NCBI RefSeq assembly: GCF_032118995.1
Contig: NC_092669.1
Coordinates: 10,291,501 to 10,355,500, forward strand
Length of the DNA stretch: 64,000 bases
Direction of reading: 5' to 3'
Source of the DNA: Asterias amurensis
Taxonomy: Eukaryota > Echinodermata > Asteroidea > Forcipulatida > Asteriidae
The notes under the pieces were generated by a model. It saw only the letters and a program-made list of their open reading frames with translations. It was not told where the DNA came from and did not search any database. Numbering within the stretch: the first letter of the stretch is position 1; every line of letters begins with the position of its first letter. Positions 33,381 to 52,200 of this stretch are shown piece after piece. The position numbers and the translations under genes are program-made.

Positions 33381-36300
33381 GTGAGAAAATGGAGTGGTTA
33401 CAGGATGGATCACAATGCATGTTGCTAAACTTGTCTTGGTTAAGTCATGGAGGCCTCCATGGTTGAGTCAGTGAAGTGCACTGGGCTCAGCAGTTTCATA
33501 AAGCCTGTAAGCACAAAAGCTTGCTAAGCACAAAAAGAAACCAAGCACAAAATAATTATAATGCAAGAATTAGTTTACCAGGCAACATACCATGTCACAT
33601 GTACCATTATGACTGGTATCCCGTTCTTTTTTGCTTAGCAGAAATATTGTCAAGCAATAATTCTCGCTTAAGCAGCTCTATGTCATTGCGACCAGATTTG
33701 GTAATTCAGTGCACAGGAGTGTCATTTATGACAGGCATGGCGCACTATTAATGCACACTATTAGTATTGCAAATATCATATCTGACACGGTTACAAATGT
33801 ATCTTTTGACTTTTGGGTATACAATAGGTAGTCCCGAACACCACAGTCTCCTGACTCCACTAGGCGACTTTACGAGTACCTCCATGGAGAAAGCCAAATC
33901 TCTACCCCCTCCCGACCAAAGAGGGGCAAGCGAAGCTACCCCGAGCACTAGCAGCTCAGCTGCAGAAGGTGAATCCAAGCAGATCGAGACGTATGAGGCG
34001 AAGGGGCCAGACGGAGACCACAAGCTCAGTGAGGAGAATGTTGATGGAGAAGGGGAGGAAGATAAGCCGAGGATGAGATTGGAACGGTCGCTGAGTGCAG
34101 CGGAAGAGGCAAAGCAGAAACAGCAGATAGAAGAAGAAATGAGGCAGAAAAAACAGTGAGTTTAGAAATAGAAGATGTTTTAAAAATTATCGGGAAGGGA
34201 ACCTTGAAGGGTGCATTCTGAGCGCAGCGGAAGAGGCAAAGCAGAAAGAGCAGATAGAAGAAGAAATGAGGCAGAAGAACAGTGAGTCAAGAAGTAAAAG
34301 ACATTTGAACAATTTCGGGAGGGGAACCATATTTTTTTTAGGGATGCATTCTGAGCGAAGCGGAAGAGGCAAAGCAGAAAGAGCAAATAGAAGAAGAAAT
34401 GAGGTAGAATAAACAGTGAGTTAGGGAACAAAGATGTTTTAGCATTTTGGAGAAGGAACCATCTTTTTGGGGTGCCTTCTCCAGCTTTGTATGCAGTGTG
34501 TTTTGAAAACTATAGGAACTAGAGAAACTAAAGGAACGGTCAGGTAAGGCATGTGTACATTTGTAAATCTCTCTTGAGTAGTGTTTGATCCTAGAAGAAC
34601 GGTTGGTTGACAACTTAACTGGCATGGGAGTTTGACAACTCAGAGCATGAAACTGTGCTTAGCTTTCGTGCAGCACTAGTTTTTGAGAGGGCAAGAGCAC
34701 CAAAGAATTTTCTTGGTAAAGTGCACCCTATGAGGCAATTGTAAATTTCAACTGCAGCATTTCAAGGGCACAGGTCAGTAACCAGGGGGCATGGAGGCAA
34801 TCACCTTTGTTGACTCTAAGCAGGCCTTGTTGATTAAAAGGAAAATAATAATTTAAAAAAATTGTGTTTTATTTCAGAATTTTAGTTGACTCTTTGTCTG
34901 AAGAACAGCTGAACCGTTATGAAGTATACAGAAGAGCCTCGTTCCCCAAGGCCGCTGTCAAAAGGGTAAGCACAAAAAAACCTGCTAAGCACAGAAAAAT
35001 ATTACTTAGCAGAAACTGGTTAACATCCACAAGTCCATAAAGTTGACATTGTTGTGACTGGTGCTCCACTCTTAATATATTGCCTGCATGATGATATCAT
35101 GTGGCGATTGTATCTACAAAGTACACAGTCAACCCTCCTACTGTCCGACCAATCAATATCATCCACTGTGGTCAATATGTTTCAATTGATGTTGTAGTCT
35201 GTATGTAATGCTTAAAATTACATTTGATACATTTGTTTGTTGTTGCCAGTATTGGAATAAAAAAGTCTAAACTAAAAATAAAAATAAATAAAAATGATGT
35301 CATGTGGCGAATGCATCTTCACAGTACACAGTCAACCCTCCTACTGTCTGTCCATTTAATACACAGTCAACTCTCCTATTGTCTGACAAATCAGTATCAT
35401 CCACTGTAGATTTGAATGATAGATGCACTATATCAGCCTGCAATATGATATCATGTGGTGGATGCATTTTACACAGTACACAGTTAACCCTCCTACTGTC
35501 TGTCTATTTAATACACAGTCAACCCTCCTACTGTCTGACCATTCAATATCATCCAATATGACTTGATGTACTTTGTCTCTTTGTTTTTCTTCCAGTACAT
35601 GCAGTCCATAACGGGATGTAGTGCATCTCACAATGTGGTTATAGCAATGTCAGGAATAGCTAAAGTGTATGTTGGAGAAATAGTGGAGGAAGGTAAATAT
35701 ATTTATAAATGTTTTATTTTGTGAGTATTCTGAATAAAAGCCCCTTACCGTGGCTAAATTTATGGAGTTGTTTTACCCAAAAAATAGCTAATCTCAGAAA
35801 CATACTGATTAGCAAAATGGGTTATCATCAGAATAAATATGTAAAAATGTAAGGTGAATCTAAAATAGTTGAAAGTACCGTCTTAATTATCAAACAGTCA
35901 CGTCGAGAAAATTAATGTGGTTTGTTTTTCTCCTTGGCTGTAAGCCATGGCTGATGACCAGTCATGGCTTGCTGGAATCTCGGACTTGCCTCCTAAACTT
36001 AGGCGGCTAGTGAAATTTACTACTCAACTGCGCAATTTTGACACTAGTCAATACTAGTTTTTAATTCCCAAGATGCATTGCAGGACATTGTTTTCCGTAG
36101 AAGCAATATAGTAAAATTCACACTGAAAAGTTTGAAAGATTGTGTTACGTAAGTAAATCATGTTGTCATGAATAGTCATGAATGACACAATTAGTTCACC
36201 AAGCAGGTAGTTGGGACTCTCTTTTAGTAGTCGTGGCAACATGAAAATGGGTAGTCGCGACACGACTAAGCATCAGTAGGCGTGACGTCAACACTAGTAA

Positions 36301-36518
36301 CCCAATCTTATTGCCTCCCCATTAAAATTATTTTTTTCCTGTGTCATGTTATGCTTTTCTTCTTCATTTTCAATCCATTCCATACAGCTCTGGATATTCT
36401 TGAGAGGTGGGGTGACACTGGACCCTTACAACCAAAACATATTCGGGAAGCCGTTCGCAAACTCAAGGCGCAGGACAAAATGACGTCATCCAAACTGCGT
36501 AAACCACTCTTTAGGTAG
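33227..36518 (+). CDS. TAF11: TAF11, TFIID subunit 11 (complete, 5 exons)
   Basis: TAF11 is a histone-fold subunit of the general transcription factor TFIID that pairs with TAF13 in the nucleus. Exons: 33227-33380, 33828-34155, 34878-34965, 35596-35692, 36388-36518; junction phases 1, 2, 0, 1 all agree and give 265 residues. The N-terminal 160 residues are acidic and disordered ([20 protein letters not shown]). The histone fold starts at [20 protein letters not shown], continues [25 protein letters not shown] and ends [14 protein letters not shown], closely matching vertebrate TAF11. Vertebrate TAF11 is about 211 residues; the extra length is in the N-terminus. Start chosen: first ATG, context AAAGCATGG. 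Exons 2 and 5 have tandem partial copies beside them. Confidence 0.96.
33485..33690. mobile_element. Family E MITE in TAF11 intron 1
   Basis: CATAAAGCCTGTAAGCACAA at left and TTAAGCAGCTCTATGTCATT at right. Confidence 0.6.
33828..34155 (+). CDS. TAF11: TAF11 exon 2
   Basis: 328 bp from ATAG|GTAGTCCC to AACA|GTGAGT. Glu/Lys/Gln-rich end [17 protein letters not shown]; this 3' end is triplicated downstream. Confidence 0.88.
34091..34490 (+). repeat. Tandem triplication of TAF11 exon 2 end with its splice donor
   Basis: Copies begin CTGAG(T/C)G at 34091, 34218 and 34351 and each keeps the ACA|GTGAGT donor, at 34156, 34282 and 34416. Copy 1 is the true exon end. Copy 2 has lost one base (frame shifted). 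Copy 3 has GAGGTAGAA (in-frame TAG) but gained a T-rich acceptor-like tract ending TTTAG at 34341. Confidence 0.9.
34878..34965 (+). CDS. TAF11: TAF11 exon 3, histone fold helix 1
   Basis: 88 bp after [27 protein letters not shown]. Confidence 0.95.
35080..35580 (+). repeat. Family S satellite-like repeats in TAF11 intron 3
   Basis: At least five copies of a block with ACACAGTCAACCCTCCTACTG followed by GACCAATCAATATCATCCA. The same block occurs inverted at 48100-48840. Confidence 0.75.
35596..35692 (+). CDS. TAF11: TAF11 exon 4, histone fold helix 2
   Basis: 97 bp after [26 protein letters not shown] and [10 protein letters not shown]. Confidence 0.95.
36388..36518 (+). CDS. TAF11: TAF11 exon 5, histone fold end and stop
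   Basis: 131 bp after [27 protein letters not shown] to KPLFR and TAG at 36516-36518. The last 45 coding bases are repeated twice more downstream. Confidence 0.95.
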
Positions 36519-36695
36519 CAGAGGAGTAAACAGGACTTAAGACCCAGGTTAGCATGATGTCATCCAAACAGCGCAAACCACTCCTTAGGTAGCAGGGGAG
36601 TAAATGTGGACTTAAGACCCAGGACAAAACGACGTCATCCAAACAGCGCAAACCACTCTTAAAGTAGCAGAGGAGTAAACGTTGGACTTTGTCTG
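36474..36695 (+). repeat. Tandem triplication of TAF11 terminal coding segment
   Basis: A roughly 74-bp unit, GACGTCATCCAAACTGCG ... GACTTAAGACCCAG, at 36474, 36548 and 36623. Only the first is coding. A further partial piece (GGAGTAAACAGTTGACTTTG) follows at 36880 beyond a family K insertion. Confidence 0.85.
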
Positions 36696-48099: not shown

Positions 48100-48840
48100 A
48101 CTGACATTCGATAGTTAACCCTCCTAATTTTTGCTAGTATCTTAAAAATATTTAACCCTCCTACTTGTCGTCCATAAGTTGACAAACCATTCAGACGTAT
48201 TCAGCTTTACTATTTTGATTGGGTATAGCAGAAACTGTGCACAAAATCTTCTGTGTATATGTAGTTTGTAGATGCACTCATCACATGATACCAATGTGCG
48301 GGCTGACATAGTGCATTTATCCTTCAAAACCAGTCCCTGATATTGAATGGTCAGACAGTAGGAGGGTTGACCATGTAATGAGTAGGTGCACTCATCACAT
48401 AATTCCAACGTGTGGGCTGGCATACATGTAGTGCATCTATCAGTCAAAACTAATGGCTGATATTGAATGGTCAGACAGTAGGAGGGTTGACTGTGTACTT
48501 TGTAGATGCATCCAACACATGATATCACAATGCAGGCTGGTAAAGTACATATTCAATTAAAAACCATGGATGGTATTGAATGGTCAGATAGTAGGAGGGT
48601 AGACTGTGTACTTTGTAGATACATCCAACACATGATATCACAATGCAGGCTGGTAAAGTACATAATCAACTAAAAACCATGGATGGTATTGAATGGTCAG
48701 ATAGTAGGAGGGTTGACTGTCTACTCTTCATAATACGCATTCACCACACTGTATCACATTGTAGGCTAGCATGTACATGTAGTGCATCTATCCTTCAAAA
48801 CCACTCAACAGCCAGGTACTGTAGTAGGAGGGTGCACTAA
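48100..48840 (-). repeat. Family S satellite-like repeats, inverted relative to TAF11 intron
   Basis: Five copies of CAGACAGTAGGAGGGTTGAC with TGCATCCAACACATGATATC and AATGCAGGCTGGTAAAGTAC; spacing about 115-120 bp. Confidence 0.8.
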
Positions 48841-49221: not shown

Positions 49222-52200
49222 CTAAAAAGACGAAATTAAACAAGGAGGATGGTAAATAGAATAAACATGTGCTTTGTTCTTGTGTCCAATGATATAGCTT
49301 AAATAATGTCAGAATAATACGCAGTTCTTATATGGGCTTTGTCTCACCCCTAGGCGTGTCTCAAAGCGCTCAGTATTTTATTTTTAACAAACAAGGGAAA
49401 CTGTCTGGGTAATTTTTTAACATAATTTTGGTTGAACAAAGAAAAATTTCCCAGAGCGGGATTTGAAGCATCAACTTCCGCTGGGACTCGAACCCACACT
49501 CTGCTGATCAGAAACACCAGAGTTTGAAACTGGTGCTCTTAACCCCTACGCCATGACACGCCAAGATCCAGAAATGGAGAAGAAGAAAAACGGCTAACCT
49601 GTCTTGTCTCATTTGGCAGACGATTCCTAAGACATCGACCATCTTTTCCTCTTCAAGTTGTCTCATGCCGACACTGATGCCTATGTAACATCCCGTCCTA
49701 CCAAGACCAGCACTAAGATAAAACACAAAATAATACATTTATTATTGTGTGTAAAAATGCCACAATAGTGTGACCTTTTATACTGCAAAGTGCTATAAAC
49801 GTACGCCCTCTTTGACTCCCATAAATGGCCGACCGTCTTAGTCGTTGATGTAAAAGAAAAACCGCGCAATTTCGAGGCATGGTTGTGTGGATCATTGTAT
49901 TCTACTTTTACAACATCTTTTACAACGGTTACACACACTTTTCAAAGACCAACTCGACCGATCCAAGGCAACGTGTTCCTTTAACCCCCTCTCTGTCAGC
50001 GTACAGTTTGTACGCTTGTCAAAATGTTGATCATTGAAAACAGACATTAGTTCTGAAAAGAACTGTCCAGCTTATTAACTACTCCCCTGGCGCAAGGCAT
50101 GAAGTTGTCCAGGACTACTACTCTTGCTTCGTGGATCAAGGAGAATTCTCGTTACTAACTTCAGTACCATGGAGTGGACATCCTAACTACAACCTAACTA
50201 CTACCTGGGCAGAAGGTATGAGATCGGCTGGTCCTACTCACCTACAGTGGACGACTACAGGGCCTTTAGGAAGGCTATTATATCAGCTCTGGATATCTGA
50301 ACCTCTTTGATCATCTCCAGTAATGTCAGTGGATTCTGGGACATCCTAACTACACCCTAACTACTACCTGGCCAGAAGGTATGAGATCGGCCGGTCTTAC
50401 TCACCTACAGTGGACGACTACAGGGCCTTTAGGAAGGCTATTATATCAGCTCTGGATATCTGAACCTCTTTGATCATCTCCAGTAATGTCAGTGGATTCT
50501 GGGACATCCTAACTACACCCTAACTACCACCTGGGCAGAAAGTATGAGATCGGCTGGTCCTACTCACCTACAGTGGATGACTACAGGGCCTTTAGGAAGG
50601 CTATTATCTGCTCTGGATATCTGAACCTCTTCGATCTCTAGTAAAAAATGTCAATGGATTCTGGGACATCCTAACTACACCCTAACTACCACCTGGGCGG
50701 AAGGTATGAGATCGGCCGGTCCTACTCACCTACAGTGGACGACTACAGGGCCTTTAGGAAGGCTATTATCTGCTCTGGATATCTGAACCTCTTTGATCAT
50801 CTCCAGTAATGTCAGTGGATTCTGGGACATCCTAACTACACCCTAACTACTACCTGGCCAGAAGGTATGAGATCGGCTGGTCCTACTCACCTACAGTGGA
50901 CGACTACAGGGCCTTTAGGAAGGCTATTATCTGCTCTGGATATCTGAACCTCTTTGATCATCTCCAGTAATGTCAGTGGATTCTGGGACAACCTAACTAC
51001 ACCCTAACTACTACCTGGCCAGAAGGTATGAGATCGGCCGGTCTTACTCACCTACAGTGGACGACTACAGGGCCTTTAGGAAGGCTATTATATCAGCTCT
51101 GGATATCTGAACCTCTTTGATCATCTCCAGTAGTGTCAGTGGATTCTGGGACATCCTAACTACACCCTAACTACCACCTGGGCAGAAGGTATGAGATCGG
51201 CTGGTCCTACTCACCTACAGTGGACGACTACAGGGCCTTTAGGAAGGCTATTATCTGCTCTGGATATCTGAACCTCTTCGATCTCTAGTAAAAAATGTCA
51301 ATGGATTCTGGGACATCCTAACTACACCCTAACTACCACCTGGGCGGAAGGTATGAGATCGGCCGGTCCTACTCAACTACAGTGGACGACTACAGGGCCT
51401 TTAGGAAGGCTATTATCTGCTCTGGATATCTGAACCTCTTTGATCATCTCCAGTAATGTCAGTGGATTCTGGGACATCCTAACTACACCCTAACTACCAC
51501 CTGGGCAGAAGGTATGAGATCGGCTGGTCCTACTCACCTACAGTGGACGACTACAGGGCCTTTAGGAAGGCTATTATCTGCTCTGGATATCTGAACCTCT
51601 TCGATCTCTAGTAAAAAATGTCAATGGATTCTGGGACATCCTAACTACACCCTAACTACCACCTGGGCGGAAGGTATGAGATCAGCTGGTCCTACTCACC
51701 TACAGTGGACGACTACAGGGCCTTTAGGAAGGCTATTATCTGCTCTGGATATCTGAACCTCTTTGATCATCTCCAGTAATGTCAATGGATTCTCTGGTGC
51801 CTTATTATCTGGCCAGGATGTATACCAGTAATGAAGCATCTGTCGACTCTCCTCTAAGTACTGTGTCAAAAGACAATAATAATAATATTAATAAAAAATA
51901 CAACATTTATTAGGCCCTCATCATGGTTGTTTCCAAGTGCATATTTGTCTGAAAGGTATGTTTGGTTTATGAGACATGTTCCGTTTACATAGCGGTGCTG
52001 TGTTGCAATATGCTGCCAATCAAACCAGAAACACCGGGGCGAACCACTTCTCTTTTCTGGTTCTGGTTCTGGTGAATTACTGCACAATCTCCACATGTCG
52101 GGATGTACACGTGCAGGTGACTGAGCAGCAATGATAAGTGCACTTGGTTCTTTTACTTGCGTAACACAACACACAGGACCAACGGCTTTATGTCCCATCC

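Follow-up and report, generated by a model that had tools for sequence, protein, structure and literature searches.

A ten-unit tandem array carrying the end of a phosphatase exon and its splice donor in Asterias amurensis, and similar arrays at unrelated exons

An intron of a PTPRR-like phosphatase gene in Asterias amurensis contains a tandem array in which the end of the preceding exon is repeated together with its splice donor, and comparable arrays are found at the ends of exons in unrelated genes. It is likely that the array is a recurrent, tolerated minisatellite, seeded by a duplication across the exon end and grown by unequal exchange or conversion, with the first donor being the one used. 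This reading is supported by the structure of the array, the block pattern of its units, the lack of acceptor-like AGs as scored with a small matrix, and the recurrence at unrelated exons. Neutral minisatellite growth across the exon end is the most likely mechanism.

The PTPRR-like gene is intact and lies on the minus strand of the window, the whole 64,000-nucleotide stretch of DNA that was analysed (Table 1). Its last five exons (53550 to 49122) give one open frame to the stop codon, and HCSAGLGRTG is encoded across the array-bearing intron. A hand-assembled join of four exons, two residues short at one junction, matched PF00102 at 1e-52. In the PDB, the WPD exon has matches to many PTPs, of which PTPRS 3sr9 (8.7e-11, two domains), PTPRR 2a8b (1.5e-10) and 1jln (2e-10), PTPN1 6xee, and PTPN5 6h8s have the five best E-values. 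The end of this exon within the Ser codon after the catalytic Cys is a PTP family position, common to 26 of the 30 paralogue loci fetched. More than half of the PTP domain matches listed, among the best 150 scored candidates, are located on contig C13, partly as near-identical pairs, which suggests a large local expansion of the PTP family on that contig.

Table 1. Features of the phosphatase and TAF11 loci in the window.
Feature	Coordinates	Strand	Last exon base	Remarks
PTPRR-like exon	55062-54908	-		donor approximate
PTPRR-like exon	53550-53413	-
PTPRR-like exon	52783-52670	-
True WPD exon, 161 nt	51860-51700	-		YLEESRQMLHYWYTSWPD...GPVVVHC + AG; translation, PDB matches, acceptor score 13.8
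Unit u0, exon half	51793-51700	-	51700	part of true WPD exon; class A (intact frame)
True 5' splice site	51694-51699	-		GTGAGT
Dispersed-repeat fragment, 44 bp	51653-51696	-		begins at intron base 4; present in every unit
Copy u1	51471-51632	-	51538	class B (+1); donor GTGAGT at 51537
Copy u2	51310-51470	-	51377	class A (intact frame); donor lost (TTGAGT at 51376)
Copy u3	51148-51309	-	51215	class B, identical to u1; donor 51214
Copy u4	50985-51147	-	51052	class C (+2); donor 51051
Copy u5	50824-50984	-	50891	class A; donor 50890
Copy u6	50663-50823	-	50730	class A; donor 50729
Copy u7	50501-50662	-	50568	class B; donor 50567
Copy u8	50338-50500	-	50405	class C; donor 50404
Copy u9, last unit	50177-50337	-	50242	class C; donor 50241
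Longer copy of the dispersed repeat	50049-50176	-		starts at array end; 81% over 129 bp to L006
Array-bearing intron, 1987 bp	49713-51699	-		splits Ser codon following catalytic Cys
Next PTPRR-like exon	49712-49599	-		(S)AGLGRTGCYIGISVGMRQL..., remainder of P-loop
Last PTPRR-like exon	49221-49122	-		up to stop codon
TAF11 array, three units	34091-34441	+		second array of exon end and donor
TAF11 true exon end	34091-34155	+		donor GTGAGT at 34156
TAF11 intronic copies, two		+		donors 34282 and 34416; spaced 127 and 133 bp

Tandem Repeats Finder (TRF) identified 10.0 copies with a period of 161 at 50176-51793 (93% matches, score 2792). The first unit begins inside the WPD exon and the nine extra copies are in the intron, 73% of which is filled by the array. 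With all ten exon ends located, the ten-copy array at 161-163 bp spacing from the WPD exon that had been described in a sequence-only reading is confirmed. That reading had the last 100 bp of the exon repeated; the nine further exon-end copies are present, and the repeated exon part is 94 bp, starting at 51793. The GTGAGT donor at the unit ends also stands, being kept in nine of the ten units and thus in eight of the nine copies. The exon itself does not end at the codon for the catalytic cysteine, as had been stated, and instead stops two bases into the Ser codon that follows (TGT AG, then GTGAGT). Each unit consists of 94 exon bases and about 67 intron bases in which the donor is included. 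The head-to-tail units with variants (10 units, 161-163 bp, three classes) are as expected of a minisatellite. The array was found at a single place in a DNA search of the whole genome (491.5 Mb, 23 contigs) that passes over very common words, and the other six matches of the query were of 37-44 bp and to the intron half only. The 16.4-kb contig of this genome, over its first 9 kb, carries long mitochondrial frames whose residues agree with code 9, together with two long frames on the other strand, as suits a sea star.

The frame is intact in four of the ten units, the true exon counted. As read from the aligned units, class B differs from class A by a T insertion, the loss of TGA and two substitutions (net +1), and in class C the difference amounts to an inserted AT plus a single substitution (net +2). 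The class order given earlier, from the true exon outward (intact, +1, intact with the donor lost, +1, +2, intact, intact, +1, +2, +2), proved exact. Units u2-u3-u4 are repeated as u6-u7-u8 at a shift of four units, with 1, 2 and 2 substitutions respectively, and the mean identity between units peaks at that shift (0.964). Duplication of blocks several units long would account for this pattern and for the identity of u1 and u3, and the earlier suggestion that multi-unit blocks were exchanged unequally and repeatedly is supported.

The intron half of the unit contains a fragment of a dispersed repeat. The fragments of u0 and u9 are 82-95% identical to six other dispersed loci, and 10 places were matched in the array. 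The longer copy that abuts the array (50176-50049) is decayed. A 221-bp query with the dispersed repeat matched 40 of 40 scored candidates, its own place included, these being the best 40 of 2581 first-look candidates, and the matches were mostly over 150-200 bp. The repeat is common in the genome. Since a fragment is in the unit and a longer copy is at the array end, the duplicated segment would have run from the exon to the edge of the element copy. The minisatellite would have been seeded by a tandem duplication with its left breakpoint inside the WPD exon, near 51793, and its right breakpoint at the dispersed repeat element in the intron. Breakpoints in the exon and in the intronic repeat would be the reason that the unit is composed of 94 bases of exon and, with the donor included, about 67 of intron. 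The array would then have grown to ten units as blocks, the largest of about four units, underwent unequal exchange or conversion.

The second array in the window is in TAF11. This gene was identified by its PDB matches to TFIID subunit 11 (2.5e-10) and to 1bh8. Pfam TAFII28 fell just below the cut-off on the last exon, and two genome hits were over the cut-off, both on the contig of the window. The reading frame is continuous across the true intron, and the acceptor preceding AATTTTAGTTGAC fits as the TAF11 acceptor. A 28-bp exon considered at 34516 breaks the frame and was discarded for that reason. Between the two intronic copies, the half with the exon and donor has events in 5 of 71 columns versus 24 of 68 in the intron half (P=4.6e-5), and this better preservation of the exon half is a point against the tolerated-minisatellite reading. 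Conversion from the true exon, or selection, would produce such a contrast, and plain neutral drift does not explain it. In the phosphatase copies, by a hand count from aligned columns, no difference was found between the exon and intron halves (9/97 versus 9/64 events, P=0.44). In a third array (36471-36689), the codons for the TAF11 C-terminus, the stop and the sequence after it are repeated about three times. A shared satellite-like sequence (TTGAATGGTCAGA.AGTAGGAGGGTTGAC, on either strand) recurs as arrays at 48268-48725 and 35477-35548 of the window and at 62-787 of L069.

Exon-end arrays with donors were also found at 3 of 60 sampled kinase exons, two among 40 loci that had about 1 kb on both sides and one among 20 more with the downstream side only, with up to 20 donors. 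These exons were hand-chosen among short exon-like hits of PF00069 (60 of 134 matches), and only copies of at least 22 bp of the profile-matched part were counted, a threshold that short exon pieces could escape. Because TAF11 and these kinase exons have such arrays, an exon-end array is not special to the PTPRR-like gene. An RSK-like exon end (L061, 144-967; best PDB match RSK alpha-3, 1e-30) has 20 donors at 41-bp spacing. Its 41-bp unit is made of 34 exon bases and GTAAGTG, and 17 of the 19 extra donors share the U1 energy of the first. The array at a presumably CDK-like exon (L075, 148-734 on the reverse strand of the fetched locus) has five units; the first extra donor is predicted to be stronger than the true one (-9.5 versus -5.6) and the later three units are without a donor. 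A kinase exon that we take to be BRSK-like (L144, 134-540) has about 20 exon bases per unit and five donors of equal U1 energy, each CGG followed by GTGAGA, spaced 86-125 bp. L091 was rejected as an exon-end array, the repeat being wholly inside the intron.

On the acceptor side, exon-start arrays were present in 0 of 40 kinase exons, and an isolated 33-bp match (88%) was seen upstream of the exon at L058. A run of 13 units, each 47 bp long, at L080/L120 (joined locus, 388-998) ends immediately upstream of a likely acceptor's CAG. Each unit carries TTCTAAC or TTCTTAC, which are presumably branch-site-like, and the exon there is presumably PAK-like. At the same intron position in the PTP paralogues, arrays were found in none of the 26 readable introns of the 30 loci fetched; L024, L046, L051 and L052 were dropped for want of a pattern-found exon end. 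L040 and L042 gave isolated 11-27 bp matches only, with no array.

Of the 11 arrays with a period of at least 30 (two L075 rows merged) at the 40 kinase loci with both flanks, 2 partly overlap an exon versus 1.97 expected at random (P=0.61). In the window, a post hoc and window-selected test on the exons of two genes only gave 3 of 9 long-period arrays partly overlapping a known coding exon versus 0.37 expected (P=0.0045), 2 of 8 versus 0.33 (P=0.041) with the phosphatase array removed, and 0.32 expected (P=0.0034) with rougher exon coordinates. The overlap of arrays and exons in the window is above random placement, and this counts against purely random placement. We read the exon-end arrays as the tail of a genome very rich in minisatellites, possibly biased to the donor side. 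A copy on the donor side would do no harm as long as the first donor wins; one on the acceptor side would bring partial exons into the message.

The true donor and the eight copy donors have an equal predicted U1 duplex energy (-12.2), and they are the 9 best of the 173 intronic GTs by predicted U1 pairing. A donor matrix built from the paralogues gives a score of 4.6 to the true donor and to the copies exactly like it, and higher scores, up to 8.0, to other GTs of the unit, but this matrix is biased at -3 by codons, each of the 19 distinct paralogue donors having CAG there. U1 pairing was used for ranking because of this bias. The first donor would normally be used and the copies removed with the intron, leaving the array near neutral, since only the first donor closes a normal-length 161-nt exon on the upstream acceptor and it is also transcribed first. 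Extension into any copy donor reads TGT AGG TGA, and if a copy were used now and then, the product would end in Cys-Arg-stop and be exposed to nonsense-mediated decay. The stop after AGG had been read correctly for any downstream donor. It loses its value as a special sign and is no mark of design, because GTGAGT after any phase-2 exon brings TGA into frame immediately.

It had also been proposed that the array acts as a decoy or produces a truncated phosphatase. Eight donors of equal strength would then compete with the true one, and less productive splicing, with decay-prone Cys-Arg-stop transcripts or intron retention, would be tuned by copy number. The equal U1 energies fit this idea. In VWF exon 44 minigenes, a cryptic or decoy donor near the annotated one can promote intron retention in a context-dependent way, and extra strong donors close to the true donor could interfere likewise; unlike the phosphatase array, the VWF site sits inside the exon (PMC8706089). 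However, no sign of selection keeping the copy donors was seen in the variable columns among the array units, with 1 of 6 donor columns variable versus 26 of about 162 columns overall, the latter figure being raised by the class B block. Exons of unrelated genes have similar arrays, the number at the two-sided kinase loci fits random placement, though that in the window exceeds it, and 0 of 26 readable PTP paralogue introns carry one. The proposed function is thus unsupported, and we consider it improbable.

It is very unlikely that the array is an assembly artefact, with the repeat collapsed or expanded and a different real copy number. The identity of u1 and u3 could point that way, but linked variants distinguish the units in a consistent block order and similar arrays with their own variants are present elsewhere in the assembly.

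On a small matrix built from 22 distinct paralogue acceptors, all of which score at least 9.3, the best of the 220 intronic AGs scores 8.0, so that none comes up to the weakest of these acceptors. The two true acceptors of the PTPRR-like gene, outside the training set, score 13.8 and 12.0. Without an acceptor-like AG in the intron, the copies are probably limited to acting as alternative donors that extend the true exon, each predicted to give Cys-Arg-stop. Decoy exons have both splice sites; unlike these, the phosphatase copies are without an acceptor-like AG, and no unit with both acceptor and donor was found by the small matrix. By the same matrix, no acceptor-like AG for a new GT-AG intron between copies was seen in the units. 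The copies are not duplicated alternative exons, as they hold 94 of 161 exon bp and six of the nine are frame-shifted. That class B copies (TTTTTTACTAG) serve as acceptors and make extra small cassette or poison exons is hardly credible. The three copies do have a short T run before AG that is absent from other units, but their AGs score 5.8 versus at least 9.3 for the 22 distinct paralogue acceptors on their own matrix.

The tolerated minisatellite can be compared with other systems. In IFI6, tandem units of about 12 bp are present, two downstream units of which are reportedly used. The phosphatase array is like it in having tandem units that adjoin an exon end within the transcript, each with a splice donor, and an intact donor of this splice-donor minisatellite kind is present in eight of the nine copies. 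Unlike the IFI6 unit, the phosphatase unit is 161 bp and includes 94 bp of exon, and its downstream donors are candidates for use. In potato RdRp, a single tandem genomic duplication across an intron-exon boundary, at the acceptor, made a new intron (PMC4974935). The phosphatase array is likewise a boundary-spanning duplication with splice signals inherited from the parent, whereas it has many copies at the donor and no new intron is predicted (PMC4974935). An earthworm metallothionein gene has intronic minisatellites and duplications of its fourth exon that are missing from the transcript, and is similar in its intronic tandem repeats and extra exon copies; the accessible portion of that account describes no units bearing an exon end with a donor (PMC12783039). 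A genome-wide class of exon-end donor arrays was not recognised in the literature searched, which is not proof of absence.

The broader claim is that exon-end donor arrays occur genome-wide at several per cent of exons, with a donor-side bias and up to 20 near-identical donors in the same exon context, that their length sets mis-splicing or retention so that they are copy-number dials, and that selection or conversion preserves the exon half. This is doubtful as a whole; if true, repeats would tune gene output through array length. The finding is of interest because such arrays recur and because they let donor choice be tested in a natural setting. Donor choice among equal neighbours is usually studied with built duplications. 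The array of ten 161-bp units and that of 20 donors spaced 41 bp are natural tests. In them the same exon end recurs with the same donor, which leaves position or order as the only possible basis of the choice, since neither the strength of the donor nor the exon context around it can account for it. A further question on which the arrays bear is whether exon ends tolerate repeats better than exon starts do. Should a few per cent of exons have similar arrays, the RNA of one animal would supply many replicates of the test of donor choice.
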